Shown in pieces: positions 1 through 11,686 of a stretch of DNA of 11,686 bases. Made by a program: the position numbers and the translations under genes. The first letter of the stretch is position 1, and each line of letters opens with the position of its first letter. The stretch is taken from positions 1 to 11,686 of the forward strand of contig PWMO01000155.1 in NCBI GenBank assembly GCA_003558175.1, read 5' to 3'. The notes beneath the pieces were generated by a model. That model had not been told where the DNA came from. It made no database searches and saw only the letters and a list, made by a program, of their open reading frames with translations. The DNA comes from Spirochaetaceae bacterium (GTDB taxonomy: Bacteria; Spirochaetota; Spirochaetia; DSM-27196; PWMO01).

Positions 1-272
1 GCACGCTGCTCGATCTGTTGCGCGAGCTGAAGCAGACTCGCTCGGTGGTGATCAACGGCGCCGGCATTCTGCCCGAGTATCAGCGCCTGGGCGGCAACGC
101 ACTGCTGTACTACGAGCTGGAACGCACCGGGCGGCTGCGCGACCCGCTGCACGCCGACCTGACCCAGGTGGCTGAATCAACCACCCTCATGGTGAGCGAT
201 CTCGAGATGCTTGGCGCCGAGGTGTACAAGATTCACCGCATGTACCGCAACAGTCTGCGCGTTACCGGATGA
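1..272 (+). CDS. GNAT-like acyltransferase, C-terminal fragment
   Basis: Open from the left edge (frame reads from base 3) to TGA at 270-272, about 89 residues, with the start outside the window. The sequence contains GAGILPEYQRLGGNALLYYEL, which resembles the acyl-CoA-binding region of GNAT proteins (PEYQxxGxNALLY), then an ADLTQVAES segment and a YKIHRMYR end. From memory, a similar ending occurs in uncharacterised GNAT-like proteins of spirochaetes and Firmicutes. The acceptor substrate cannot be inferred. The 3' end overlaps the convergent hflX end by 11 bp (262-272), so there is no room for a terminator between them. The TTG at base 18 is only an internal codon. I am sure it is coding, moderately sure of the family. 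Confidence 0.65.
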   Translation, partial: TLLDLLRELKQTRSVVINGAGILPEYQRLGGNALLYYELERTGRLRDPLHADLTQVAESTTLMVSDLEMLGAEVYKIHRMYRNSLRVTG

Positions 273-1548
273 CGTACGGTTCGAGCACGGCGCGCGTGCG
301 GCTGGGGACTCGTGCCGTGACGGTGAAGCTGTCGTGGTCATACTCCTGCTGCAATACGCTGCCGGTGCGATGGATCAGAGCCGCCAGGTCGTGGCGGTCA
401 TTGGGCAGGCGGTAGCGCGCAGGGTGCATTGCCTCGAGCAGGTAGCGTTCGATCTCAGCGGTCAGCTGTTCGAGCCCCGTCCCGGTCTGCGCCGAAACCT
501 CAACCGTAGCAGTGGTCTCGGCCGCTTCGTCGGCAACGCGTCTGCGTGCGAAGCGCAGCGCCTCGAGATCGGTGGCGAGATCCATCTTGTTCAGCGCCAC
601 GATCACCGGTTTGTCCCCCGCGCCGATCTCCTGCAGCACCGTCCGGGTTGTATGGTAATGGTGCAGCAGCTCCGCGTCCGAAGCGTCGAGCACGTGAATC
701 AGGTAGTCCGCTTCCACAGCCTCCTCCAGCGTGGAGTGAAAGGCGTTGACCAGGTCGTGCGGCAGTTTTCTTACAAACCCGACCGTGTCGGTCAGCACCG
801 TCTCGAGGCCGCCCGTAAGCGGCAGGCGGCGCGTGGTTGGGTCGAGGGTGGCGAACAGCTTGTCCGCTACCAGCACGTCGGCGCCGGTGAGCGCGTGCAG
901 CAGCGAAGACTTGCCGGCATTGGTGTAGCCTACCAGCGCACCGGACGGCATTGGAACATCGCGGCGGCGGCGCGACATCGTACTGCGCTGTTCGCTCAGG
1001 GCGCGCAGTTCCTCGCGTACGCGGGTGATCCGGCGCAGCAGGGCACGCCGGTCGTACTCAATCTGCTTTTCACCCTCGCCGCGGGTTCCACGCATGCCGC
1101 CCTGCTGGCGCGAAAGGTGCGTCCAGGCGCGCGTGAGCCGCGGCAGCTGGTACTGGAGCTGCGCAAGTTCAACCTGCAGCGACGCCTCACGGGTTGAGGC
1201 CCGCTTCTGGAAGATGTCCAGAATGACCTGGTGGCGGTCAATGACCGTAAGGCCGGTGAAGCGCTCCCAGTTGCGCTGCTGCGATGGGGAGAGTTCGTCA
1301 TCAAAGACTATGCATGACACACCGAGGCGCTCCGCCTCTGCCTTTATCTCCTGCGCTTTCCCTGAACCGACCAGCAGCCGCGGCGACGGCTCTCGTACCC
1401 GGACCGCGAGCGAACCCACCGACTCCAGGCCGACGGAGAGCGAAAGCTGCGAGAGTTCATCAAGCAGCAGGGTTGTGACGCTCTCTGCGCCGCCGTTGCG
1501 GCCGTTGCCGTTGAGTTCTACTGCCACCAGAAATGCACGTGTTCTCAC
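262..1548 (-). CDS. hflX: HflX, ribosome-associated GTPase
   Basis: 428 residues, normal length for HflX, an Era/Obg-related GTPase that binds the 50S subunit and splits stalled or heat-damaged ribosomes in the cytoplasm. Visible in order: the N-terminal HflX domain (about 1-140, with VGSGKAQEI at 60-68), the family linker GGMRGTRGEGEKQIEYDRR at 150-168, a coiled helix (168-195), then the G domain: G1 GYTNAGKSS 207-215, G3 DTVGF 254-258, G4 NKMD 320-323 and G5 SAQTG 352-356. All nucleotide-binding motifs are intact. The start is GTG at 1548, fitting the usual HflX opening (RAFLVAVEL). No Shine-Dalgarno lies at proper distance; the nearest AGG is 12 nt away. It lies 104 nt downstream of the unknown gene at 1653-2426 on the same strand, so it may be co-transcribed or use its own promoter (1556-1585). 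Confidence 0.96.
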   Translation of the reverse strand: MRTRAFLVAVELNGNGRNGGAESVTTLLLDELSQLSLSVGLESVGSLAVRVREPSPRLLVGSGKAQEIKAEAERLGVSCIVFDDELSPSQQRNWERFTGLTVIDRHQVILDIFQKRASTREASLQVELAQLQYQLPRLTRAWTHLSRQQGGMRGTRGEGEKQIEYDRRALLRRITRVREELRALSEQRSTMSRRRRDVPMPSGALVGYTNAGKSSLLHALTGADVLVADKLFATLDPTTRRLPLTGGLETVLTDTVGFVRKLPHDLVNAFHSTLEEAVEADYLIHVLDASDAELLHHYHTTRTVLQEIGAGDKPVIVALNKMDLATDLEALRFARRRVADEAAETTATVEVSAQTGTGLEQLTAEIERYLLEAMHPARYRLPNDRHDLAALIHRTGSVLQQEYDHDSFTVTARVPSRTRAVLEPYVIR

Positions 1549-1555
1549 TATGAAG

Positions 1556-1585
1556 AAGTTACCTGCAAACGTGCCGCCGGGACAA
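1556..1585 (-). promoter_or_regulatory. Possible weak promoter for hflX
   Basis: On the minus strand, TTGTCC (1585-1580) and TAACTT (1561-1556) are spaced by 18 bp. The predicted transcription start would be about 1549, one base before the GTG start at 1548, so the message would be almost leaderless. The -10 matches consensus at only three positions, so this is tentative. Confidence 0.25.
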
Positions 1586-1623
1586 GCGCCCCCCGCGGGT
1601 TCCGACGCGTCGGGACGGTGCGC

Positions 1624-1656
1624 CGGACAACCTCAGTCAACATCGGACAACCTCAG
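1624..1656 (-). repeat. 13-bp direct repeat over the stop codon of the 1653-2426 gene
   Basis: cggacaacctcag occurs at 1624-1636 and again at 1644-1656, a period of 20 bp. The right copy contains the gene's TGA stop (complement of 1653-1655). It looks like a short tandem duplication whose second copy has partly drifted. A 12-bp perfect palindrome (CCGACGCGTCGG, 1602-1613) lies nearby, but no T-tract follows it. Confidence 0.8.
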
Positions 1657-2426
1657 ACCACCATTGCCGAGCGGCCCCAGTCGTAATGGTGCTGCCGGAT
1701 CTGATCGAGCGACGGCATTGGATACCAGACCACGTCCGATTTGTCTCCGACGTAGAGGCCGCGTTCAATGATGTTGTAGGCGAAGGACTGCATCGAGCGC
1801 TCGACGTTCTTGTTGGGCTTCTCGCTGCCGTGCCGCACCGCCATGATGCACTCGCGCAGGTGGAGCAGGTTCTTGTCGTAGACCGGACCGGCGTCTGCGG
1901 TGTCCTTGCTCTTCTCCAGGTCAACGGTCTTGATGTCGGCGAAGACAACCTTCGGCACGAAGACCTTGTTTGCCGGGTTGGTCATGTGGATGCTGAACTG
2001 CACCGGATCGAACTTGCTGACGACCAGCGGTGAAATAGGGCATATCTCCTGGTACACGAAGTAGCCGCGCCCGGTTTGAGCCGCGCCCGCATCCGCCCTG
2101 CGCGGCTCGATCCCCAGGCTGCGCCCGTCCGCGGTGGTCAGATAGAGCTTCTTCAGCCGGTCGAGCTCGGTGTGTTCCAGAGCGCGATAAACCGACATCC
2201 AGACCGAGTTCTTGGGTGATCCATCCGAGTGAGTCACACAACGTTCGCGTGCGTACTTCCAGTCGAAGTAGTCGCCGAACTCACCGTCGACTTCGATGAA
2301 GATGATCCGTTCATAGGAGCCGTTTTTCCTGCCGGTAGACATGTACTGCCCGAACTGAATCGGGTCGAGTTGTGACGCAATCATCGCTTCCAGCGGAAAG
2401 ACCGATAGATAGTAGCGAGTCTGCAT
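1653..2426 (-). CDS. Uncharacterised protein with an internal duplication
   Basis: 257 residues; I do not recognise a named family. The ATG at 2426 is preceded by AAAGGGGAG at good distance, so start and coding status are firm. No signal peptide or membrane helix is visible, so it is probably cytoplasmic. Residues 11-47 and 130-166 align without gaps: both carry S-x-x-D-P-[IV]-Q-F about eight residues in, then a Met, and end in a hydrophobic strand followed by acidic residues (IIFIEVD and VVFADIK). Each copy is preceded by a Tyr-rich strand (YYLSVF, YFVYQEI), so the protein seems to be two related halves. The second half continues with a charged, helix-like stretch (NLLHLRECIM, KPNKNVERSMQSFAYNIIERG) and ends in DWGRSAMVV. 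An aromatic DYFDWKYARERC segment lies at 52-63. It stands alone between hflX and the divergent TTT operon, and neither neighbour clearly indicates its role. Confidence 0.85.
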   Translation of the reverse strand: MQTRYYLSVFPLEAMIASQLDPIQFGQYMSTGRKNGSYERIIFIEVDGEFGDYFDWKYARERCVTHSDGSPKNSVWMSVYRALEHTELDRLKKLYLTTADGRSLGIEPRRADAGAAQTGRGYFVYQEICPISPLVVSKFDPVQFSIHMTNPANKVFVPKVVFADIKTVDLEKSKDTADAGPVYDKNLLHLRECIMAVRHGSEKPNKNVERSMQSFAYNIIERGLYVGDKSDVVWYPMPSLDQIRQHHYDWGRSAMVV

Positions 2427-2460
2427 AGCACTCCCCTTTTGTAAGAGCCATTCTCCTGAT

Positions 2461-2469
2461 ATTGTAACA
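2461..2469 (-). promoter_or_regulatory. Extended -10 promoter for the 1653-2426 gene
   Basis: Reading leftward, TGTTACAAT (complement of 2469-2461) is an extended -10 element: TG, one base, then TACAAT. No good -35 lies 16-18 bp upstream, as is typical of extended -10 promoters. The predicted start is near 2454, giving a leader of about 28 nt that contains the AAGGGGAG ribosome-binding site. Confidence 0.5.
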
Positions 2470-2529
2470 CGTTTAGTGCCGGGCGGCGAGGACGGTTGCG
2501 GCCTGACCGTCGTTGCAACGCTTTCGTGT

Positions 2530-2562
2530 GCCGTGTCGCGTCCGGCAACACGGCAACACGGC
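2530..2562. repeat. Inverted and tandem repeat upstream of the TTT operon promoter
   Basis: GCCGTGT (2530-2536) is complementary to ACACGGC at 2548-2554 and again at 2556-2562; the latter two lie in a perfect 8-bp tandem, AACACGGC at 2547-2554 and 2555-2562. The block ends three bases before the -35 of the plus-strand promoter at 2566, a position suited to a regulator. A separate 10-bp palindrome, CGTTGCAACG, is at 2511-2520. A regulatory role is inference. Confidence 0.4.
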
Positions 2563-2565
2563 CAT

Positions 2566-2595
2566 TTGATTCGTACGCGGTTTATCGGGTAGTAT
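2566..2595 (+). promoter_or_regulatory. Promoter of the dehydrogenase-tctCAB operon
   Basis: TTGATT (2566-2571) and TAGTAT (2590-2595) are spaced by 18 bp. Predicted transcription start is near 2602, leaving a leader of about 30 nt that ends in AAGGTGG (2622-2628), four bases before the ATG at 2633. The same -10 hexamer, TAGTAT, appears in the leftward promoter at 9598-9626. Confidence 0.5.
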
Positions 2596-2632
2596 GGCGG
2601 CGCACGCGACGCTCTGCAGACAAGGTGGCTGA

Positions 2633-3649
2633 ATGAAACGAGTGGTGTTTGCCGGTGATCGGCTGTTCAAGAAGTTCCCCAACCGAGACTACTTCTGCGG
2701 ACGGATTGGTGAGATCGGCGCCGAGTGGCATTTTGCCGAGGGGGCCGACGACGCAACGCTTGCCGACGCAACGCGCGAGGCGGCAGCGGTGGTGGTGATT
2801 GACCGGCGCATTGACCGCCCGCTGATCGAGGGAATGCGCCGTTGTGAACTCGTGATGACGCTTTCGGTTGGCTACGACTGCGTGGACGTTGCCGCAGCAA
2901 CCGATCGGCGGATTCCGGTAAGCAACTGTCCCACCTACTGCATTGACGAAGTAGCCACCCATGCGATCACGCTGCTGCACGCGGTAGCGCGCAAGCTGCA
3001 TCTCGTCATACCGCGGACCAGGGCGGGAAACTGGTACACCGATTACGCTAAACCGATCTTCTCGTTCCAGCAGAAGCTGCTGGGAATTATCGGCCTTGGG
3101 CGCATCGGACGTGCCACGGCTGCCAGGGCACAGGCGCTGGGCATGAACGTAGCGGCGTATGACCCGTACGTGGACGACGACATCTTTGCAATGTGCGGGG
3201 TTCGCCGTTTCCTCGACCTGGAGGAGATGCTGCCCGAGTGCGATTCCGTTTCCATCCATGCACCGCTGAACGGCGAGACCCGGTCCATGATAAACGCCGA
3301 AACGCTGTCCCTCATGCAGCCGCACGCGTGCATCGTCAACACCGCCCGCGGCGCCATTATCGATGAAGGGGCGCTTCTGGCGGCCCTCCAGCAAGGCCGG
3401 ATTGCCGGCGCCGGGTTGGATGTGCTGGAGAAGGAGCCGCCGGCTGCCGACCATCCGCTGCTGCAGGAAGAGCGGGCGCTGGTTACGCCGCACATGGCGT
3501 GGTATTCCGAAGAGAGCTACACGCGGAACCAGGAACTGGGAATGGACGAACTGATCCGGGTGCTTACCGGCCGTCGGCCGCAGTACGTGGTGAATCCTCA
3601 AGTATTTGAGAAACCGAGGTTGGAGCAGGTCCAACAGCAAGAGGAGTAG
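2633..3649 (+). CDS. D-isomer-specific 2-hydroxyacid dehydrogenase, CtBP-like
   Basis: 338 residues, full length for the family, which interconverts 2-keto acids and D-2-hydroxy acids with NAD(P)H in the cytoplasm. Seen: N-terminal half of the catalytic domain (1-105); Rossmann motif GLGRIG at 154-159, with Asp177 at the end of beta-2 suggesting preference for NAD; catalytic Arg239 (NTARGAIIDE), Glu268 (DVLEKEPP) and His287 (VTPHMAWYSE). His287 is followed three residues on by Trp290 in an HxAWYSE context, the hallmark of the CtBP branch rather than SerA, glyoxylate or lactate dehydrogenases. Start ATG 2633 has AAGGTGG four bases upstream. It leads the TTT operon: only four bases separate its stop from tctC, so the two are almost certainly co-transcribed. 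The physiological substrate is unknown, but the context suggests an organic acid related to the one imported. Confidence 0.93.
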   Translation: MKRVVFAGDRLFKKFPNRDYFCGRIGEIGAEWHFAEGADDATLADATREAAAVVVIDRRIDRPLIEGMRRCELVMTLSVGYDCVDVAAATDRRIPVSNCPTYCIDEVATHAITLLHAVARKLHLVIPRTRAGNWYTDYAKPIFSFQQKLLGIIGLGRIGRATAARAQALGMNVAAYDPYVDDDIFAMCGVRRFLDLEEMLPECDSVSIHAPLNGETRSMINAETLSLMQPHACIVNTARGAIIDEGALLAALQQGRIAGAGLDVLEKEPPAADHPLLQEERALVTPHMAWYSEESYTRNQELGMDELIRVLTGRRPQYVVNPQVFEKPRLEQVQQQEE

Positions 3650-3653
3650 AGGG

Positions 3654-4640
3654 ATGAGCAGGAAGAAGACCGTATGGCGGCTGGGAGTCGCGCTGCTGGT
3701 GATCCTCGCGATTGCCGGACAAACGGCACTGTTTGCCGCCGGAGCCGGAGAAGAGCGGGCATACCCGTCACGTGCTATCAATTACGTGATTCCGTTTGAC
3801 GCAGGCGGACAGTCGGATATTACCGCGCAGTATCAGCGCGCGGGACTTGAACGGGCATTTGGCGTTGACGTGGTGATCCGGCATCAGCCGGGTGCCGGTG
3901 GTGCGCTTGCCTGGGCCGACCTGGCACGCAGCCGCGCCGACGGCTACACCATCGCGGGCAACAACATTCCGCACATCATCATTCAGCCTCTGGTACGCGA
4001 GAATGCCGGCTACGCCACCGAGGATCTGCGGCCGGTCTACCTCTTTCAGACCACGCCGATCGGCCTGGCGGTAGCCGCCAACAGCCCGCACAACACGCTG
4101 GCCGACCTGATCGAGTACGCACGCGCCAATCCGGGGCGGGTAACGGTCAGCGGTTCCGGAACGCATTCCGGTCATCATCTGGCCATCCTTCAGCTCGAGT
4201 ATCTCAGCGATGCCGATTTCACCTACATTCCGGCAACCGGCGCGGCCCCATCGGTGACCAACTTTCTCGGCGGGCATACGGAGGCCATCCTGGCCAACTC
4301 CGACGACCTGGTGCAGCATCAGCAGGCCATGAAGATTCTGGCTATCGGCACCACCGAGCGCTTTCACGCGCTTTCCGACGTACCCACCTTCATGGAGCAG
4401 GGCTACGACTTCACCGCCGGTATTGACCGCGGCGTGACGGTGGCGAAGGACACCCCCGAGGATGTTGTGCGGGCGATCGAGCGCGCGTTCGATACCGTAA
4501 GCCGTGATCCCGAGTTTGTTGCCGAGATGGAAGCGCTTGGATTTGAGATGCACCAGATCGGTGCCGACGAGTACGCTGCCTACATAGAGCGCAAGCAGCG
4601 CGAGATCATCACCGTCTTGACCGAGCTCGGCGAGCTGTAG
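3654..4640 (+). CDS. tctC: TctC/Bug-family periplasmic solute-binding protein
   Basis: 328 residues, usual for TctC/Bug proteins, the extracytoplasmic receptors of tripartite tricarboxylate transporters. A signal peptide is clear: MSRKK, a hydrophobic core at about 11-28, and a probable cut after FAAG/AGAG near residues 28-32; there is no lipobox cysteine. The mature protein starts with YPSRAINYVIPFDAGGQSD (37-55), matching the family pattern YPsrpI..vvPf.aGG.sD. Further family marks are GAGGALAWADLARSRADGYT (80-99) and DVPTFMEQGYDF (242-253). The start is ATG 3654, with GAGGAG at 3641-3646 overlapping the end of the previous gene; an upstream in-frame ATG at 3606 would put 16 polar residues before the signal peptide and is unlikely. 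Bug ligands range from citrate to dicarboxylates, aromatic acids and amino acids, so the ligand cannot be read from sequence. Confidence 0.94.
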   Translation: MSRKKTVWRLGVALLVILAIAGQTALFAAGAGEERAYPSRAINYVIPFDAGGQSDITAQYQRAGLERAFGVDVVIRHQPGAGGALAWADLARSRADGYTIAGNNIPHIIIQPLVRENAGYATEDLRPVYLFQTTPIGLAVAANSPHNTLADLIEYARANPGRVTVSGSGTHSGHHLAILQLEYLSDADFTYIPATGAAPSVTNFLGGHTEAILANSDDLVQHQQAMKILAIGTTERFHALSDVPTFMEQGYDFTAGIDRGVTVAKDTPEDVVRAIERAFDTVSRDPEFVAEMEALGFEMHQIGADEYAAYIERKQREIITVLTELGEL

Positions 4641-4653
4641 GCTCGGCGAGCTG
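4624..4653 (+). repeat. Tandem hairpin-forming repeat at the tctC stop, before tctA
   Basis: gctcggcgagctg occurs at 4625-4637 and 4641-4653, a period of 16 bp; the tctC stop TAG (4638-4640) lies between the copies. Each copy is self-complementary (AGCTC-GGC-GAGCT at 4624-4636; GCTC-GGC-GAGC at 4641-4651), so the message could fold into one or two small hairpins. A structure just after a binding-protein gene and before membrane genes is often used to keep the binding protein in excess; applying that here is inference. Confidence 0.7.
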
Positions 4654-4673
4654 CTCGAAAGGAAACGTTTGGT

Positions 4674-6224
4674 ATGCCCGCAGTTCTCCAGGCAGTTCTC
4701 ACCGTACTGCATCCGCTGAACCTCTTTTTGATTGGAACCGGGGTAACTGCGGGTATTGCCGTGGGTGCGCTTCCGGGGTTGACGGCCACCATGGCCATTG
4801 CGCTGCTGGTGCCGTTCACCTTTGGGATGAACGTGGTGCACGCGCTGGTGCTGCTGGGCGGCATCTACTGCGGCGCCATCTACGGCGGCAGCTATGCCGC
4901 CATTCTGATCAACACGCCGGGGACGCCGGCGGCCATTGCTACTACGTTCGACGGATTTGCGCTGGCGCGCAAGGGACACGCCTACCGCGCCATCGTGGTC
5001 GCTACCATCGCTTCGGCGGTTGGCGGGCTGGTAGGGGTCTTTTTTCTGCTGTTTCTCTCTCCGCCGCTGGCGCGCGCATCGCTGCGTTTTGGACCGCCGG
5101 AGTTCTTCTGGCTCACGGTGTTCGGGCTCACCATCATTGCCACCATCTCGCCCAAGTCTACCGTCAAGGGGCTGATCGGGGGCGCGATCGGGCTGTTGAT
5201 CGGCACCATCGGGATATCGCCGATCGAAGGCAACGTGCGGTTTGCGTTTCGCACGGTGGCGCTGCAGAACGGCATCACGCTGATTCCGGCGCTGATCGGG
5301 CTGTTCTGTGTGCCCGAGATTCTGGACATGATAGCGTCGCGGCATCACCGGGAGACCGCCATTCCGTATCGCTCGCAGCGGCACATGCTGCGCCGGGTGT
5401 GGCGTCTGATGGCGCGCAAGCCGATGCTGCTGCTGCGCTCCTCGGTTATCGGCACGATCATCGGGATTGTCCCGGGGGCCGGGGCCAACATCGCGGGGAT
5501 GGTCTCGTACAATGAGGCGGTACGGGTGTCGCGGCAGCCGGAGAAGTTCGGCGAAGGGTCGATAGACGGCATCACGGCCGCCGAGGCGTCAAACAACGCC
5601 GGGGTGGCAGGGTCGCTGGTGCCGCTGCTCACGCTGGGCATTCCCGGCGCACCGCCGGCGGCAGTGCTTCTGGGCGCGCTGCTTCTCAAGGGCATGCGTC
5701 CGGGGGCCGAGCTGTTTACGGTGCACGCTCCGATTACCTACACCTTCATGTTTTCGCTGGTGATCGCCAACATCGCGCTCCTGCCGCTGGGTTTGATGCT
5801 GGGCAAAGCGGCCAGCAAGGTGGTCACCGGCCTGCCGATTACGCTGCTGGCACCGCTGGTGTTCTTTCTCTCCGTGATCGGTTCGTTTGCGATTCAGAAC
5901 AACATCGCCGATGTCTACGTGATGCTGGCGCTGGGGCTGGTTGGCTACGTGGGACGACGCGTCGGTCTGCAGCCGGGGCCGATTGTGCTGGGCCTGATCC
6001 TGGGCTCGATGTGCGAGCAGGGGCTGGTACAGTCAATTCTGATGGGCCGAGCAGCCGGCACCCCGTTAGCCATCTTCTTTACCCGGCCTATTTCAATCAT
6101 TCTCATTGGGTTAACCGTAGTGTCGGCGTTCTGGCCGATGCTGGCCCGCATGCGGCAGCGGCGCACACCGGCGATTGCCGCGGCTCACACCCACCCGATC
6201 GTTGAGGAGAAGCGCGATGCGTAA
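4674..6224 (+). CDS. tctA: TctA, large membrane subunit of the TTT transporter
   Basis: 516 residues, normal for TctA, the roughly 12-helix secondary transporter subunit. Family motifs are all present: GIAVGALPGLTATMAIALL (27-45), YGGSYAAILINTPGTPAA (70-87), GIVPGAGANIAG (264-275), PEKFGEGSIDGITAAEASNN (289-308) and SLVPLLTLGIPGAPPAAVLL (314-333). The two LPGL/VPGAG motifs and the two NTPG/GIPG motifs reflect the known internal duplication of the family. Hydrophobic segments fill the whole length except a basic loop at about 222-252. Start ATG 4674 has AAAGGA at 4658-4663, ten bases upstream, a slightly long spacing that may lower expression relative to tctC. The 3' end overlaps tctB by 8 bp, suggesting translational coupling. 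It works with TctB and TctC to import an organic acid, probably with cation symport (family knowledge). Confidence 0.96.
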   Translation: MPAVLQAVLTVLHPLNLFLIGTGVTAGIAVGALPGLTATMAIALLVPFTFGMNVVHALVLLGGIYCGAIYGGSYAAILINTPGTPAAIATTFDGFALARKGHAYRAIVVATIASAVGGLVGVFFLLFLSPPLARASLRFGPPEFFWLTVFGLTIIATISPKSTVKGLIGGAIGLLIGTIGISPIEGNVRFAFRTVALQNGITLIPALIGLFCVPEILDMIASRHHRETAIPYRSQRHMLRRVWRLMARKPMLLLRSSVIGTIIGIVPGAGANIAGMVSYNEAVRVSRQPEKFGEGSIDGITAAEASNNAGVAGSLVPLLTLGIPGAPPAAVLLGALLLKGMRPGAELFTVHAPITYTFMFSLVIANIALLPLGLMLGKAASKVVTGLPITLLAPLVFFLSVIGSFAIQNNIADVYVMLALGLVGYVGRRVGLQPGPIVLGLILGSMCEQGLVQSILMGRAAGTPLAIFFTRPISIILIGLTVVSAFWPMLARMRQRRTPAIAAAHTHPIVEEKRDA

Positions 6225-6681
6225 CAACCGCCTGGTGGCGCTTACCCTGATCGCATTTGGTCTGTTTGCGTGGTTGGAGTCCCAGCGCTACGGCGCGCTG
6301 AGTCGGCTGTTTCCGCAGGTTGTGGCGCTGGCGCTGGTGGTGCTTTCGCTCGTGCTGCTGGCGCAAACGTTTACTGCGCGGGCTCGCCGCGCCGAGGCGG
6401 TACGCCGCGAAGGGCGCGCGGAAGCAGAGAAGCCGGATCTGCGCAGCGTGGGCTTGTCGGTATTGATCATGATCGCCTGGACACTGCTGCTGGAGCCGCT
6501 GGGATTCTGGACTGCGAGCCTGCTGGCGTTTGCGCTGCTGGTAGTGACGCTGCGAACCAGAGATCAGGATGCCGCGGCTGTCTGGAAGACGGTGCTGGCA
6601 GGTGTGGTGCTGATGACGGCGTTTGTGCTGGTGTTTCGCATTACGCTGCGGGTCCCACTGCCGACGGGCCTCTTCTGGTAG
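6217..6681 (+). CDS. tctB: TctB, small membrane subunit of the TTT transporter
   Basis: 154 residues, with four hydrophobic segments at about 6-20, 34-52, 78-113 (two close together) and 124-142, the TctB layout. Typical marks are the FP pair after helix 1 (LFPQVVALAL, 31-40), a charged cytoplasmic loop (53-77) and EPLGFWTASLLAFALL (93-108). TctB is the poorly conserved accessory subunit of TTT systems. Start ATG 6217 is chosen because GAGGAGA (6204-6210) sits six bases upstream and it overlaps tctA by 8 bp; an earlier in-frame ATG at 6175 would add a polar tail inside tctA. It ends with TAG at 6679-6681, and the next ORF continues in the same frame. Confidence 0.92.
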   Translation: MRNNRLVALTLIAFGLFAWLESQRYGALSRLFPQVVALALVVLSLVLLAQTFTARARRAEAVRREGRAEAEKPDLRSVGLSVLIMIAWTLLLEPLGFWTASLLAFALLVVTLRTRDQDAAAVWKTVLAGVVLMTAFVLVFRITLRVPLPTGLFW

Positions 6682-6683
6682 AC

Positions 6684-6712
6684 CGTGGGTCGGCGGGTCG
6701 TGGGGCGGCGGG
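6684..6712 (+). repeat. 15-bp tandem duplication just after the tctB stop
   Basis: cgtgggtcggcggg (6684-6697) and cgtggggcggcggg (6699-6712) match at 13 of 14 positions with a period of 15 bp. It begins three bases after the tctB stop. Unlike the other repeats of this kind here, its period is a multiple of three, and it lies at the start of the following small ORF, giving the near-repeat VGRRV-VGRRA and two possible GTG starts (6685 and 6700). Confidence 0.65.
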
Positions 6713-6891
6713 CACCCATTCCCAACTGCCTGCAGTGCCGGCACTTCTATGTCACCTGGGATCAGCGCTTTCCACGCGGCTGCCGGATATTCGAGATCAA
6801 AAGCCGCGAATTACCGAGCCGTGTGGTGCTGCGCTCCACCGGCCGCAACTGCCCGTCGTTTGAAGCTTCACCAGACATCCGCCAGGCGTGA
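6685..6891 (+). CDS. Small four-cysteine protein, probable metal-binding
   Basis: 68 residues from GTG 6685, or 63 from GTG 6700. The core NCLQCRHFYVTWDQRFPRGC, then FEIKSRELPS and SGxxC-like STGRNCPSFE, reads like a small conserved bacterial protein I recall (CxxCxHyYvTWdxxFPxGCxxFxxKSxxLPSxxVxxSSGxxCxxFE), which has no established function. Cys15, 18, 33 and 56 suggest a zinc or iron site. Codon use and this pattern support real coding despite the short length. No good Shine-Dalgarno precedes either GTG. It lies three bases after the tctB stop and in the same frame, so it would be translated by reinitiation or by readthrough of TAG. It probably shares the TTT operon message, but a functional link is not implied. 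No clear terminator follows; a short dyad (CCGGC-A-GCCGG, 6898-6908) lacks a T-tract. Confidence 0.7.
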   Translation: MGRRVVGRRAPIPNCLQCRHFYVTWDQRFPRGCRIFEIKSRELPSRVVLRSTGRNCPSFEASPDIRQA

Positions 6892-6925
6892 CGCGTGCCG
6901 GCAGCCGGAATCTGCGCTGCGGGTG

Positions 6926-7918
6926 TCAGGGCTGGTAGACCGCCCAGCTGGTACGGAGCAGGCTCTCGGCGTCGCTGTAGCGCGGCGTCCAGCCCAGCAG
7001 CTCGCGGGCCCGCGCCGATGAGGCTATCAGTCCGGCGGGATCTCCCGGCCTTCGCGGCGAAACAACCGATGGGATCGGCCGGCCGGTGATACGGCGTGCG
7101 GTCTCCAGCATCTGCAGCACCGTCACCCCGTTCTCGCTGCCGAGGTTCAGCGTTACGCTGCGTCGCTTGTCCGCGATGTAGCGCAGTGCCTGCACGTGCG
7201 CTGCGGCCAGGTCACTGACGTGGACGTAGTCGCGCAGCCCGGTTCCGTCTTCAGTGTCGTAGTCGTTGCCGAAGATCTCGATGCGGGCGCGGCTGCCCGC
7301 AGCAACTTCCATGATCACCGGCAGCAGGTTGGCGGGGTTGCGTTCGAGACCGGTGACGGCGCCGGCGGGATCGTAGCCCGCGGCGTTGAAGTAGCGCAGG
7401 GCGGCGTAGCGGATACCGCGCAAACGCTCGAACCAGTGCAGCAGACGCTCGATCTCCAGCTTTGTGTAGCCGTAGAAGTTGGTGGGCTCGGTCGGGTGGT
7501 TCTCGTCCACCGGCAGGTACTGCGGCTCGCCGTAGACCGCGGCCGATGAAGAGAACACCATGCGCGTGACTCCGTGACGCGCCATTGCCGAGAGGATATT
7601 GATCGTTCCGACAATGTTGGAGCGCGCGTAGAGCTCCGGTTCGATCATGGACTCTCCGGCCGCCTTCAGCGCAGCGAGGTGAACGACCGCGTCTATCGGT
7701 GCTCCCGGCCGTCTGGAGGAGCTCCCGCCGGCAAACAGCTCGTCCAGCGTCAGCTGGTCGGCAACGTCGCCATGAACGAACGCCGCCTCCGCGAAAAGGT
7801 TCTCACGCAGGCCACTGCGCAGGTTATCCAGAACCGTGACCGAGTAGCCCTGCTGCAGCAGGGAGTAGACCACGTGGCTGCCGATATAGCCGGCTCCGCC
7901 AATTACAAGTACGTGCAT
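6926..7918 (-). CDS. galE: UDP-glucose 4-epimerase
   Basis: 330 residues, close to the usual GalE size. It interconverts UDP-glucose and UDP-galactose with bound NAD in the cytoplasm, serving galactose use and polysaccharide precursors. Seen: NAD-binding GGAGYIGSH (7-15), acidic Asp31 at the end of beta-2 ([10 protein letters not shown]), catalytic Ser124 region ([12 protein letters not shown]), Tyr149-x3-Lys153 (YGYTK), ALRYFNAAG (173-181) and [10 protein letters not shown] (229-238). The epimerase-specific order is intact, though other UDP-sugar epimerases share it. A Ser/Arg/Pro-rich loop at 63-73 ([11 protein letters not shown]) looks like a small insertion. Start ATG 7918 puts the Rossmann motif where the family has it; a TTG extension to 7978 would add 20 polar residues and overlap the promoter. 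No Shine-Dalgarno precedes the ATG; the promoter places transcription within about three bases of it. Convergent with the small gene ending at 6891. Confidence 0.94.
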
Positions 7919-7927
7919 GACGTCGAG

Positions 7928-7956
7928 AGCATAGGCGGAACGGCCTTCGGAGTCAA
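7928..7956 (-). promoter_or_regulatory. galE promoter
   Basis: Leftward TTGACT (7956-7951) and TATGCT (7933-7928) are spaced by exactly 17 bp, the best sigma-70-like match in the window. Counting six discriminator bases puts +1 near 7921, three bases from the ATG at 7918. There is no ribosome-binding site in that space, so the message is predicted to be leaderless or nearly so. Confidence 0.65.
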
Positions 7957-7961
7957 CGCGC

Positions 7962-7990
7962 TTGCCGCGGCGGGGCAATTCAACTATCCT
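7962..7990 (+). promoter_or_regulatory. Phosphofructokinase promoter
   Basis: TTGCCG (7962-7967) and TATCCT (7985-7990) are spaced by 17 bp. Six discriminator bases (7991-7996) place +1 on the A of the ATG at 7997, so a leaderless message is predicted. The -35 lies five bases from the -35 of the divergent galE promoter, back to back, so one bound regulator could affect both. GCCGCGGC at 7964-7971 is an 8-bp palindrome. Confidence 0.5.
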
Positions 7991-7996
7991 ACCGCC

Positions 7997-9334
7997 ATGA
8001 GCGGCGGCTACGATTTTACTATTTCCACGTTGGGTGAGGCGAAAGTGACCTCACCGATTGAGTACTCAACCGAGATTGGCGACCAGGTCGCCAACTTTGT
8101 GAACGACGGCGAACGGGTGGTGTATGACGTCAACGCCTCCGCCGGACCGTACCAACGGCGGTTCGAGGCGGGAGAGCTCCTCGAGAAGGCCGGACCACGG
8201 AAGCGGATCTACTTCGCACCGGGTCACGTGCATGCCGGCATTGTGACCTGTGGCGGCCTCTGTCCCGGTCTGAACGACGTAATACGGGCAATTACCCGGT
8301 GTCTCTGGCACCGATATGGTGTGCACCGCATCTCGGGGATACAGTTTGGCTATCGCGGACTTCTGCCGGAAGAGGGCGTACCCACCATGCCGCTGGACCC
8401 GGACGTGGTCGACGATATCCACCGGATCGGCGGAACGATTCTGGGCAGTTCGCGCGGCGGGGGAACCCGCACCGAGGACCTGGTGGATACCATTGAGCGC
8501 CTCAATTTGAACATCCTGTTCACCATCGGCGGAGACGGAACACAGAAAGGCGCATTGGCGATTGCCGAGGAGATCGAGCGCCGCCGCTTGAAGGTCGCGG
8601 TGGTGGGGATCCCCAAGACCATCGACAACGATCTCAGCTTCACCGAGAAGTCGTTTGGTTTTGAGACGGCAGTGGCGAAGGCAACGGAGGTGGTTTTTGG
8701 CGCGCATGCGGAGGCGCACTCTTCCATCAACGGCATCGGGCTGGTAAAGGTCATGGGGCGGGATGCCGGTTTCATTGCGTCGCATACGGCGCTTGCCAGC
8801 CATGAGGTCAACTTCGTGCTGATCCCGGAGGTTCCCTTCGAGCTGGGCGGTGCAAACGGGTTTCTGTCGCACCTGGAGCGGCGGCTCGAGCGGCGCAATC
8901 ACGCGGTTATTGTTGTTGCCGAAGGCGCCGGACAGGAGCTCATGGATCGTTCTACGGCGACGGACGCCTCCGGAAACCGCCTCTTTGCGGATATCGGGCT
9001 TTTTTTGAAGAACGAGATCACAACCTACTTTGCGTCCAGGAGCAAAGAGATCAATCTGAAGTATATCGATCCCAGTTACATCGTGCGCAGCGCACCCGCT
9101 GAACCTACCGACTCGGTGTACTGCTCGCGGTTGGGGCACAACGCGGTGCACGCAGCGATGGCCGGCAAGACCCGGGTGCTGATGGGCCTGGTCAACAACA
9201 CTTTTGTGCACGTGCCGATCCCTATGGCGGTGTCTGCGCGCAACCGTGTCGACCCGGACAGCAGTCTGTGGCGTGACGTGATCGAGGCAACGCACCAGCC
9301 GGTCAGCATGGTCAACGGTTCCTCCGGCGGCTGA
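7997..9334 (+). CDS. pfkA: 6-phosphofructokinase, atypical ATP-dependent (clade X) type
   Basis: 445 residues, about the size of the short spirochaetal phosphofructokinase (Borrelia has a protein of about 447). It phosphorylates fructose 6-phosphate in glycolysis. Seen: a roughly 75-residue N-terminal extension, substrate-binding GGLCPGLND (86-94), GYRGL (118-122), GGDGT (178-182), catalytic PKTIDND (206-212) and MGRDAG (253-258). The donor-determining pair is Gly181 (GGDGT; Asp in PPi enzymes) with Lys207 (PKTID; Gly in ordinary bacterial ATP enzymes). From family knowledge, Gly plus Lys marks the atypical ATP-dependent clade X also found in plants and trypanosomes; PPi use cannot be excluded by eye. 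Start ATG 7997 fits the conserved-looking N-terminus ([16 protein letters not shown]). GTG 8045, with GTGAGG upstream, is an alternative. A longer frame upstream to 7574 is antisense to galE. The downstream hairpin at 9389-9410 has its T-tract on the other strand. Confidence 0.93.
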
Positions 9335-9369
9335 CGCCGTGGGTTGTGAGTGACGCCGTGGGTTGTGAG
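9332..9369 (+). repeat. Perfect 19-bp tandem duplication including the pfk stop codon
   Basis: tgacgccgtgggttgtgag occurs at 9332-9350 and again, immediately, at 9351-9369 with no mismatch. The first three bases are the phosphofructokinase stop TGA. The period is not a multiple of three, so the second TGA is in another frame. Identity of the copies suggests a recent duplication. Confidence 0.9.
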
Positions 9370-9380
9370 TGGCGGGGCAC

Positions 9381-9410
9381 AAAAAAAAGGCCGATCCTCA
9401 TCGATCGGCC
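9381..9410 (-). terminator. Strong leftward intrinsic terminator
   Basis: Perfect 8-bp stem GGCCGATC (9389-9396) / GATCGGCC (9403-9410) with a six-base loop, flanked on the left by eight A residues (9381-9388). Read on the minus strand this is a hairpin followed directly by TTTTTTTT, a textbook rho-independent terminator. On the plus strand the hairpin is followed by GTTCGATATGG, a poor T-tract, so it would stop phosphofructokinase transcription weakly. It ends the short unit starting at 9626 and would also stop serC readthrough. Confidence 0.88.
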
Positions 9411-9453
9411 GTTCGATATGGTACGGCTTCTGCCGTAAACCAACTATCGCTTA

Positions 9454-9537
9454 TTATTGTGGAGACTGATTGCTCCACTGATTTGGTGTCTGTTTTTGCC
9501 GGCCGTGCCGGCCTTCTTCATCCGGTGGACTTGACAT
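9454..9537 (-). CDS. Putative 27-residue small protein
   Basis: Leftward ATG 9537 is preceded by GAGGAGGTG, with AGGAGG at 9548-9543 five bases before the ATG, the strongest Shine-Dalgarno in the window, matching eight bases of the 16S rRNA tail. The ORF ends in two adjacent in-frame TAA stops (9456-9454 and 9453-9451). The product begins MSSPPDEEGRHGRQ and ends in WSNQSPQ: hydrophilic, rich in Pro, Gln and Asn, with one Trp and no membrane segment, Cys or signal peptide. I do not recognise it. It has its own promoter and a strong terminator and lies 156 nt beyond serC on the same strand. The start signals support translation; the composition gives no function. It could also be a translated regulatory RNA in which the act of translation matters. 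Confidence 0.5.
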   Translation of the reverse strand: MSSPPDEEGRHGRQKQTPNQWSNQSPQ

Positions 9538-9597
9538 TGGCACCTCCTCACATCGATAAGTTGAATGATTGGTAACCAGTACCCTCCCTACACGTAA

Positions 9598-9626
9598 ATA
9601 CTAAGCCTGAAACCGCGCCGGGTCAA
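9598..9626 (-). promoter_or_regulatory. Promoter of the small leftward unit
   Basis: Leftward TTGACC (9626-9621) and TAGTAT (9603-9598) are spaced by exactly 17 bp; +1 is predicted near 9591, about 54 nt before the small ORF. Just upstream of the -35, CTGG-N7-CCAG (9634-9648) is an imperfect dyad with an AT-rich centre that could be a regulator site. The remaining bases between 9627 and the serC stop hold no other recognisable signal. Confidence 0.6.
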
Positions 9627-9676
9627 GAGCGAACTGGCAATATTCCAGCCGGTTTTCTGCAGCCGCATGTCTCAGT

Positions 9677-9692
9677 CCGCCCGCCGCCCGCC
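9677..9692 (-). repeat. 7-bp tandem repeat directly after the serC stop
   Basis: Reading leftward from the serC TGA (9695-9693), GGCGGGC is repeated at 9692-9686 and 9685-9679 and followed by GG, about 2.3 copies. Short and low in complexity, so on its own it is weak evidence, but it matches the pattern at other gene ends in this window. Confidence 0.5.
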
Positions 9693-10778
9693 TCAGCCGT
9701 TCTTGGTGCTGAAGTCGCGCATGAAGTCGGCCAGCGCTTCGACACCTTCCATCGGCATGGCGTTGTAGATCGATGCGCGGCAGCCCCCGACACTGCGGTG
9801 GCCCTTCAAGCCGTCAAACCCGGCGGCGGTTGCTTCGCTGATAAACTGTTTCTCAAGCTCCTCAGAGGGAAGGCGGAAGACTACGTTCATGGTGGAGCGG
9901 AAGCGTTGATCGACCGGGTTGCGATAATAGCCGTTGCTGCCTTCTATGGTGTCGTAGAGGATGGAGCTCTTCAGGCGGGACCGGTTGTCAAACTCCGCCA
10001 GGCCTCCTTCGGCCTTGACCCATTCGAGCACCAGGCGCATCGCGTTGATGGAGAAGACCGGGGGCGTGTTGTAGAGTGAATTGGTCTTGGCGTGCGTCTT
10101 GTAACTGAGATATGCCGGCAGAGTCTCTGGGCAGCGTTCAAGCATGTCCTCGCGGATGATCACGACGGTCACGCCTGCCGGGCCGAGGTTCTTCTGTGCG
10201 CCGGCATAGATCAGGCCGAACTTCTCAAACGAGAAGGGGCGGCTCATGATGTCGCTTGACATGTCGGCTACGATGGGAACGCTGCCGCTGTCAGGGAAAT
10301 CCTTGAACTGCACACCGCCGATTGTCTCGTTGGAGGTGAGATGGAGATAGGCAGCCGACGAGTCGAGCGAGAGCTGATCGGCGTCCGGGAGCGTCATGTA
10401 GTTGAACTCTTTGCCGTCGTACGCGAGACGAACCGTTCCAATCTTCTCTGCGTCGGACAGTGCCTTGCCTGCCCACGATCCACTGTGAATCAGGTCACAG
10501 CTGCTGCCGGCCGGCAGAAAATTCATCGGAACCATTGCGAACTGCAAGGTGGCGCCCCCTCCGAGCAGCAGCACCTGGTGCGACTGCGGAACGCTCAGCA
10601 GCTCGCGCAGCAACTCGATCGTTTGATCATGGACTGCCTCGTACTCTTTGCTGCGGTGGCTGGCTTCAATCAGCGACAGGCCGGCATTCTCGTGCTCGAC
10701 CATGGTATCCCGCAACTGCTCAAGGACGCTCAGCGGCAGAGTGCAAGGCCCGGCCGAAAAATTGTACTTGCGTGCCAT
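9693..10778 (-). CDS. serC: Phosphoserine aminotransferase
   Basis: 361 residues, the normal SerC length. This PLP enzyme converts 3-phosphohydroxypyruvate and glutamate to phosphoserine and 2-oxoglutarate in serine biosynthesis. Seen: YNFSAGPCTLP near the N-terminus (5-15), SHRSKEY (40-46), GGGATLQFAMVPMN (73-86, phosphate site), ADMSSDIMSRP (171-181, with the PLP-pairing Asp), the Schiff-base Lys196 in YAGAQKNLGPAG (191-202), and GHRSVGGCRASIYNAMP (326-342). All are intact. Start ATG 10778 is set by homology (MARKYNFSAGP) and by AGGAG seven bases upstream; the frame extends far upstream but that part is antisense to the sirtuin. No serA or serB is next to it, and the dehydrogenase at 2633 is not SerA-like. 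Its transcript has no terminator of its own right after the stop and would probably end at 9381-9410. Confidence 0.97.
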   Translation of the reverse strand: MARKYNFSAGPCTLPLSVLEQLRDTMVEHENAGLSLIEASHRSKEYEAVHDQTIELLRELLSVPQSHQVLLLGGGATLQFAMVPMNFLPAGSSCDLIHSGSWAGKALSDAEKIGTVRLAYDGKEFNYMTLPDADQLSLDSSAAYLHLTSNETIGGVQFKDFPDSGSVPIVADMSSDIMSRPFSFEKFGLIYAGAQKNLGPAGVTVVIIREDMLERCPETLPAYLSYKTHAKTNSLYNTPPVFSINAMRLVLEWVKAEGGLAEFDNRSRLKSSILYDTIEGSNGYYRNPVDQRFRSTMNVVFRLPSEELEKQFISEATAAGFDGLKGHRSVGGCRASIYNAMPMEGVEALADFMRDFSTKNG

Positions 10779-10808
10779 AACGACGCTCCTATGATTCGAT
10801 GATAATTT

Positions 10809-10837
10809 ACCGTATCCCATTTGCCGCAGCGAGTCAA
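10809..10837 (-). promoter_or_regulatory. Probable serC promoter
   Basis: Leftward TTGACT (10837-10832) and TACGGT (10814-10809) are spaced by 17 bp, followed by an AT-rich stretch (AAATTATC). +1 is predicted near 10802, giving a leader of about 24 nt that holds the AGGAG site. The -10 is a weak match. The -35 lies back to back with that of the divergent sirtuin promoter, nine bases apart. Confidence 0.4.
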
Positions 10838-10846
10838 AGGGGCGCG

Positions 10847-10876
10847 TTGACGTTCGCCCGCGTTCGCGCATACCAT
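10847..10876 (+). promoter_or_regulatory. Possible sirtuin promoter overlapping the annotated start
   Basis: TTGACG (10847-10852) and TACCAT (10871-10876) are spaced by 18 bp. The -10 would overlap the first ATG (10875), and +1 would fall at about 10883-10884, on the in-frame GTG at 10884. If this promoter is used, the protein starts at that GTG on a leaderless message. Confidence 0.35.
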
Positions 10877-11686
10877 GACGGCCGTGGAACCGAAGCGCGA
10901 CCCGGAGCCGATGCCAACAGAAGCGGAGCTCACACAGCTCGAGCGGCTTGAGCAGTTTCTGGCTGCGGGCGCGGTGCTGCTGCTGTCGGGAGCCGGCATC
11001 AGCACGGAGTCGGGAATCCCCGATTATCGTGGACCGACCGGCCGTCTGCGCGAAAGCAGTCCCATTCAGTATCGCAATTTTGTCTCCAGCGCTGCGGCAC
11101 GACAGCGCTACTGGGCGCGCAGTGCCGTGGGCTGGCCGCGAGTCAAGGCGGCGCAGCCCAATGCCGGGCACCGTGCGGTAGCGGCGCTCGAACAAGCCGG
11201 CATGGTACGCGGGATCATCACGCAGAACGTGGATGGTCTGCACCAGGCTGCGGGCAGCAGCAACGTGGTGGAGCTGCACGGTACGTTGTACCAGGTCACC
11301 TGTCTGCAGTGCGGGCGGCTTTTTGACCGTGAGCAGATCCAGCGGGACATGCTGCAGGCCAACCCCGGCTGGGAGGGGACCGATGCGCTGAGCACCCCTG
11401 ACGGTGACGCGGTGCTGCAGCAGGCCGAGATTGACGGCTTTCGCAGCCCTGAATGCGGGGCGTGCGGCGGTGAGCTCAAGCCGCACGTGGTGTTCTTTGG
11501 CGAAAACGTGCCTCGCGCGGTTGTCGACCGTGCCTGGGAGATGCTGGAGCGTTCTCGGGCGGTGCTGGTGGCCGGTTCATCGCTGACCGTTTACTCCGGG
11601 TTCCGCTTTGTTGACCGGGCGGTACGGCAGGGGAAGCCGGTTGCGGTGATCAACATGGGGCCGACGCGTGCCGATCCGCTCGCCAC
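10875..11686 (+). CDS. SIRT4-like NAD-dependent sirtuin, 3' end outside window
   Basis: Open to the right edge: 270 codons plus two bases. Sirtuins remove acyl groups from lysines using NAD. Seen: GAGISTESGIPDYRG (39-53), TQNVDGLH (116-123), catalytic His135 (ELHG), four zinc cysteines 143, 146, 194 and 197, KPHVVFFGENVP (202-213), GSSLTV (234-239) and the start of the cofactor loop VINMGPT (258-264). RYWARSAVGWP (78-88) and the 47-residue spacer between the cysteine pairs point to the SIRT4-like class II group rather than CobB. From family knowledge this class often acts as ADP-ribosyltransferase, lipoamidase or weak deacylase, so the activity is left open. I give ATG 10875; it has no Shine-Dalgarno. 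GTG 10884 and ATG 10911 (GGAG upstream) are alternatives and do not affect the domain. Divergent from serC. Only the last C-terminal part is missing. Confidence 0.93.
   Translation, partial: MTAVEPKRDPEPMPTEAELTQLERLEQFLAAGAVLLLSGAGISTESGIPDYRGPTGRLRESSPIQYRNFVSSAAARQRYWARSAVGWPRVKAAQPNAGHRAVAALEQAGMVRGIITQNVDGLHQAAGSSNVVELHGTLYQVTCLQCGRLFDREQIQRDMLQANPGWEGTDALSTPDGDAVLQQAEIDGFRSPECGACGGELKPHVVFFGENVPRAVVDRAWEMLERSRAVLVAGSSLTVYSGFRFVDRAVRQGKPVAVINMGPTRADPLA

Follow-up and report, generated by a model that had tools for sequence, protein, structure and literature searches.

Candidate translated small-RNA genes across a spirochaete class share an early Pro-Pro pair at a near-fixed distance from a hairpin

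Dual-function small RNAs such as SgrS (encoding SgrT) and SR1 (encoding SR1P) carry a Shine–Dalgarno sequence and a terminator, and to our knowledge few regulatory RNAs have been described in the spirochaete phylum. Three systems come closest to the unit described here. In Salmonella, loss of EF-P raises mgtA mRNA through the proline codons of mgtL, an effect that passages of PMC6460261 read as stalling that alters downstream RNA structure; mgtL and our unit are both short ORFs with early proline codons, but in mgtL, a cis leader, the prolines alternate, whereas the unit appears free-standing, with its own terminator and adjacent prolines. The Streptococcus fthC uORF motif resembles the unit in its purine-rich Shine–Dalgarno-like stretch, putative AUG, P2 hairpin that often carries an in-frame stop, and terminator-like third hairpin; it differs in its downstream main ORF, which encodes 5-formyltetrahydrofolate cyclo-ligase, and the passages of PMC11109978 that bear on it describe no Pro-Pro rule. 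VcdRP, too, is a short regulatory RNA with a small ORF (29 amino acids); according to excerpts of PMC8672173, its small protein acts on citrate synthase, whereas the spirochaete peptide is little conserved beyond Pro-Pro.

The unit lies between serC and pfk in a contig of a Spirochaetaceae bacterium (PWMO01000155.1, positions 1 to 11,686), the whole of which is called the window below. The flanking genes encode a PFK (PF00365) and an Aminotran_5 protein (PF00266) consistent with SerC, and pfk, downstream of the unit, is convergent. The first-pass annotation had described a leftward unit with all its elements in order, and every part was found on the minus strand (Table 1), with an RNA start expected at about 9591–9593. 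A promoter scan of the pfk–serC gap returned the window promoter as its single site (shuffles: mean 0.2), and terminator-like sites numbered one on the minus and two on the plus strand (shuffles: mean 0.4 over both strands). Compared with shuffled versions, the RNA of the unit in the window folds better (z −2.79), 2 of 200 shuffles doing as well.

Table 1. Elements of the unit in the window
Element	Position	Strand	Remark
Promoter TTGACC-17 nt-TAGTAT	9598..9626	-	-35 at 9626-9621, -10 at 9603-9598; promoter scan
5′ leader, about 54 nt	9538..9593	-	includes GTGTAGGGAGGGT, present in G003 too
Shine–Dalgarno AGGAGGTG	9541..9548	-	Shine–Dalgarno-like stretch retained in alignment A6
Start ATG	9537-9535	-	5 nt past AGGAGG
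Micro-ORF, 27 codons MSSPPDEEGRHGRQKQTPNQWSNQSPQ, then TAA TAA (9456-9451)	9451..9537	-	
Pro-Pro codons CCA CCG	9523..9528	-	sole widely conserved peptide feature
Hairpin P2 GCCGGC-ACG-GCCGGC	9498..9512	-	begins 16 nt past the first base of the Pro pair
Hairpin P3, inside the 3′ end of the ORF	9460..9477	-	2 compensatory pairs vs G003
Hairpin P4, past the stop codons	9414..9449	-	2 compensatory pairs vs G003
Intrinsic terminator, 8-bp stem and eight T	9381..9410	-	hairpin 9410-9389, T to 9381

The annotation had also suggested that the gene could be undescribed, and our searches point the same way: Rfam 15 at gathering score gave no match on the unit (window, 11 of 13 loci, 20 loci), Pfam and NCBIfam gave none for six unit peptides, ARAGORN called no tmRNA at 6 loci, and the gap DNA had no match in a plasmid collection. 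STnc240 and four other weak Rfam matches in the gap were set aside as all far below their gathering scores; four of the five fall at the terminator end. No description of the unit was found among the best matches of searches of openly readable papers; the genomes of PMC8632094 do include Spirochaetes. The family was probably missed because its ORF is too short to call.

A DNA search of the window's order gave one clear homologue, in a genome of the same genus (G003; E 6.7e-31, 73% over the match), and wider relatives needed covariance models. The G003 unit occupies the same place, between serC and a convergent pfk, behind a promoter TTGACT-17-TAGACT. Promoter, leader start, Shine–Dalgarno and terminator are retained between the two units, their reading frames align free of indels until the frame's end, and P2, P3 and P4 all carry compensatory changes. 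On 15 class-level units, RNAalifold recovered P2 and part of the terminator and nothing else; because the MAFFT alignment of these units was poor, P3 and P4 rest on the window–G003 pair and on inspection. Towards the 3′ end, most of these 15 units have the conserved stretches AAGUGAG and, ahead of the terminator, CUAAA.

Comparison of this gap among related genomes, the check put forward by the first-pass annotation, gave a divided answer: the order serC–unit–pfk is kept in G003, but serC occurs without the unit in several families. No unit lies within 420 nt of serC at any of the six f8, three f4 or four f3 loci, nor in G036 of f7, and several f3 and f4 genomes carry the unit elsewhere. The models led to no accepted unit in four genomes of the window's genus (G001, G002, G004 and G005), nor in the f8 genomes and others, some of these genomes being incomplete; the models may also miss diverged copies, as happened with two units recognized by eye and kept outside all counts (L025 in G011 and L047 in G007). 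G001, G002 and G005 (completeness 92, 97 and 89%) have no serC match; G001 keeps pfk with neither serC nor a unit beside it, the PFK match of G002 is weak and partial, and the G004 contig ends 7 nt past serC.

With a covariance model of the window–G003 pair (R1), units were located behind serC in further families of the same order. Across the 420 nt past serC at 28 loci, the common core consists of a Shine–Dalgarno, an ATG, a few codons, Pro-Pro and three free codons, ending in most of these loci in GCCGG-loop-CCGGC. Models of this core, R2 (13 training units) and R3 (34 rows, one of them a reverse-strand artefact, L104), matched across the spirochaete class; because both were trained on units having these features, later matches are biased towards them. 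In 46 genomes of the order, every genome had a match at E <= 1, mostly background, and all 20 places with E < 1e-3 were accepted as units. Among 392 genomes of the phylum, all matches with E < 1e-3 fell within the window's class, the best outside it having E 0.0027. The search of 394 class genomes gave 83 places in 80 genomes at E <= 0.02, with units accepted on inspection in 72 genomes. For the weaker matches (E 0.0017 to 0.02), the Pro-Pro ORF itself weighed in the decision to accept, whereas all 67 places at E <= 5e-4 were accepted without such selection. Nine places were rejected: L229 has an in-frame TTG and Pro-Pro without a Shine–Dalgarno, L093 is without a start codon, and L231, L233, L234, L235, L237, L238 and L239 are without a Pro-Pro ORF at the place.

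The resulting set, obtained by covariance model and inspection, holds 74 units in 73 genomes under 20 family labels (73 accepted class-search places plus L104 of G405, with G362:C1 left out); kin sequences are counted singly, and counts among the 74 units are not of independent events. Run on 234,388 bases, R3 matched each source once and nothing else at E <= 0.01. A pattern scan of named genomes returned 67 stretches, 12 with spirochaete titles, of which 11 are full units and one (L187) falls inside a gene; by eye, no terminator was seen in the 11 inspected of the 55 stretches with other titles, and three of those inspected (L151, L163, L182) have short Pro-Pro ORFs. One genome, G310, holds two diverged copies of the unit, L110 and L222. 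The first-pass annotation had judged a chance arrangement unlikely, and we concur, mainly on the evidence that related genomes repeat the complete architecture.

All 74 units have a Shine–Dalgarno and a start codon (ATG in 70, GTG in 2, TTG in 2), and with the start chosen by its distance from the Shine–Dalgarno, the frame being disregarded, it is in frame with the Pro pair in 74/74. Measured from the A of the start, the first Pro codon follows at 3 (6 units), 6 (22), 9 (37), 12 (4) or 18 nt (5), that is, at codon 2–7. A subset that escapes the circularity of the training, the 16 non-training units found with E < 1e-3 in the R2 searches, is in frame in 16 of 16, and its distances of 3, 12 and 18 nt were new to R2. 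Pro-Pro is present in 73 of the 74 units. The exception, L092 (G039), has Pro-Ser, a GTG start, no promoter that we could find and an imperfect terminator stem, and is perhaps decaying. The Pro codons vary at their third bases only: the first is CCA in 48 units and CCG in 26, never ending in C or T, and the second ends in T in 42, G in 18, C in 7 and A in 6 units, with one Ser codon. In E. coli Pro pairs, according to the sections of PMC8129111 that deal with them, CCC and CCU are avoided at the first codon only and CCA is enriched; the bias in our units is like that of E. coli and hard to explain otherwise, and the pair is therefore probably decoded. In L050 (G025), a second ATG-AAT-CCA-CC frame (MNPPANPASRRHRDG) lies downstream of the first micro-ORF on the same transcript.

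P2 is held at a nearly constant distance from this pair. It begins 16 nt from the pair's first base in 55 of the 74 units and 15 nt in 14 (69 together), so that while the start-to-Pro-Pro distance takes five values, the spacing from Pro-Pro to P2 hardly changes. In the ribosome as described in a portion of PMC7282821, the mRNA channel has room for 11 nt downstream of the P-site codon's first base; if that codon is the second Pro, P2 would begin at +13 or +14, just beyond this 11-nt channel. In 37 units the stop codon follows P2, and in 33 it falls wholly or partly within the P2 loop; it precedes P2 in 3 more and lies in the 5′ arm in 1. All cells (100%) of the five outer P2 pairs are standard pairs, and the covariation score of these pairs is 0.063, compared with 0.022 for shuffles, none of 500 of which reaches it, a score to be read with the facts that the A6 alignment had been fitted to the P2 structure and that the structure slid by +3 scores 0.059. 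The covariation is thin: two outer pairs are invariant and one is changed on both sides, a result reached by 93 of 500 shuffles. At the sixth position, 61 of 74 units have a standard pair, all six types occurring, while 12 have a mismatch and 1 was left unscored.

The units also tend to carry signals of their own for transcription. A terminator lies within 330 nt of the start in 71/74 units against 18/444 control stretches, and a promoter of the window type in 57/74 against 14/444. The controls were drawn at random from these loci, and many must be coding sequence; the terminator scan picked P2 in L202 and, in L105, a hairpin further along. By a crude longest-ORF rule, 28 units share their strand with the downstream gene and 40 do not (short contig in 5, unclear in 1); with the upstream gene, 51 share it and 22 do not (short contig in 1). 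Neighbouring genes differ between families (23 loci). With its own promoter and terminator, differing neighbours and downstream genes on either strand, the unit looks free-standing. The suggestion of the first-pass annotation that it might regulate pfk or serC was dropped because units are found away from both genes: outside the window's order the unit adjoins other genes (12 class-level loci), and in G008 and G021 (f3) it lies about 10 kb from serC.

We propose, with moderate confidence, that the unit is a small-RNA gene in its own right, about 210 nt long and belonging to a family spread over the spirochaete class, whose RNA would be gated by a ribosome pause at Pro-Pro. The conserved promoter, Shine–Dalgarno, start, frame, Pro-Pro, spacing, P2 and terminator make it very likely that the unit is transcribed and translated, and this conservation backs the short translated transcription unit that the first-pass annotation had read from the window. 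Its 'small protein' is doubtful: Pro-Pro alone is widely conserved in the peptide, ORFs range from 7 to 31 codons, and two of them end one residue past the pair. As the peptide is little conserved, the neighbours differ and the downstream strand varies, the unit is probably a translated small RNA that stands alone, not an ordinary protein gene and not one linked to pfk or serC; and as the lone Pro-Pro and the hairpin position are chiefly what is kept of the coding part, the peptide probably works by pausing the ribosome rather than as a protein.

In such a mechanism, the strong ribosome-binding site would load a ribosome, and the early Pro-Pro, 10 nt before P2, would slow it soon after initiation, subject to relief by EF-P; the paused ribosome would stand with P2 immediately beyond its mRNA channel, and the pause would set for how long the leader is shielded and if P2 and the hairpins after it are folded. 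The state of translation, hence the supply of EF-P or charged tRNA-Pro, may in this way gate the RNA, through its stability or its activity in trans, and the RNA is itself the likely object of control because there is no consistent downstream gene. According to the relevant extracts, EF-P relieves Pro-Pro-type pauses (PMC6460261) and keeps transcription and translation coupled (PMC5021804). Against a pause stand the Thr directly before the pair in 20/74 units, Thr being a weak stalling context in the part of PMC8129111 that treats it and suppressing stalling before PPP in that of PMC4176338, as well as the shortness of P2, the Pro-Ser of L092, the three units that stop before P2 and the one that stops in its 5′ arm. 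More tentatively still, a class-wide RNA might sense translation (EF-P or charged tRNA-Pro) through the near-obligatory Pro-Pro pause, switch forms and control targets in trans; if true, this would be a stalling peptide acting in cis to a small RNA, not to an mRNA.

The unit might instead be a classical dual-function RNA, its small protein having a job of its own and the RNA perhaps also base-pairing. At the level of sequence it has the promoter and intrinsic terminator of such an RNA, the Shine–Dalgarno is strong, and conservation of the frame, the start codons and third-base freedom speaks for a translated ORF, which runs to 23–31 codons in the f1, f4, f5 and f7 units. A conserved peptide, however, was not found: beyond Pro-Pro conservation among units is slight, the window and G003 peptides agree at 11 of 27 residues, the six peptides searched lack domain matches, and the endings include PPD* (2 units) and PPKD* (1). 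We regard this reading as unlikely. Similarly improbable in our judgement is an RNA that traps ribosomes, with phage minigenes as the comparison: frequent initiation followed by an early stall or drop-off would tie up tRNA-Pro, EF-P or 30S subunits, and the RNA would have no pairing target. The near-consensus Shine–Dalgarno in most rows of A6 and the first Pro at codons 2–7 suit it, but it would need neither hairpins P3 and P4 nor a fixed spacing from Pro-Pro to P2.

We consider far less probable that the unit is a cis leader of a downstream gene, as mgtL is of mgtA, an attenuator in which a proline-codon pause decides termination. The layout, with hairpins and a terminator after a proline-containing micro-ORF, is of the mgtL type (in passages of PMC6460261), and 28 of the 68 scored downstream genes are co-directional; yet the other 40 are opposite, no consistent co-directional gene emerged, the neighbours change from family to family and, with pfk convergent, the reading is already contradicted for the window. 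The arms GCCGG/CCGGC of P2 and terminator could, by inspection, swap partners in many units; such a switch is probably not general and was set aside, because in L110, L119 and L121 the P2 sequence differs but GCCGG is retained in the terminator. Just as remote, in our view, is a structured RNA without a coding role, its Shine–Dalgarno, ATG and CCNCC being parts of a fold only: the hairpins carry compensatory changes and GGAGG could pair with CCRCC, one mismatch aside, but lengths change in threes only, GTG or TTG replaces ATG at the start, and the Pro third bases are free, with a codon bias at the first Pro. Compared with these, the pause-gated small RNA is the reading that we favour; it would add a conserved gene family to the spirochaete phylum and offer a natural test case, in which selection kept little beyond two prolines and a hairpin at fixed distance, making the role of Pro-Pro pausing and EF-P in RNA fate directly testable.

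Other structured elements came up during the searches. A weak R1 match led to a tandem array (L070, G007:C1:3216700-3217750) that is unrelated to the unit; its copies of about 189 nt each have several hairpin-like stretches and a terminator-like end. At L198, on a spirochaete contig, a Flavo-1 RNA (RF01705; 47.1 bits, gathering 42) occupies positions 256-336 of the plus strand, upstream of the unit; Flavo-1 is listed for Bacteroidetes in the portion of PMC2864571 that covers it.
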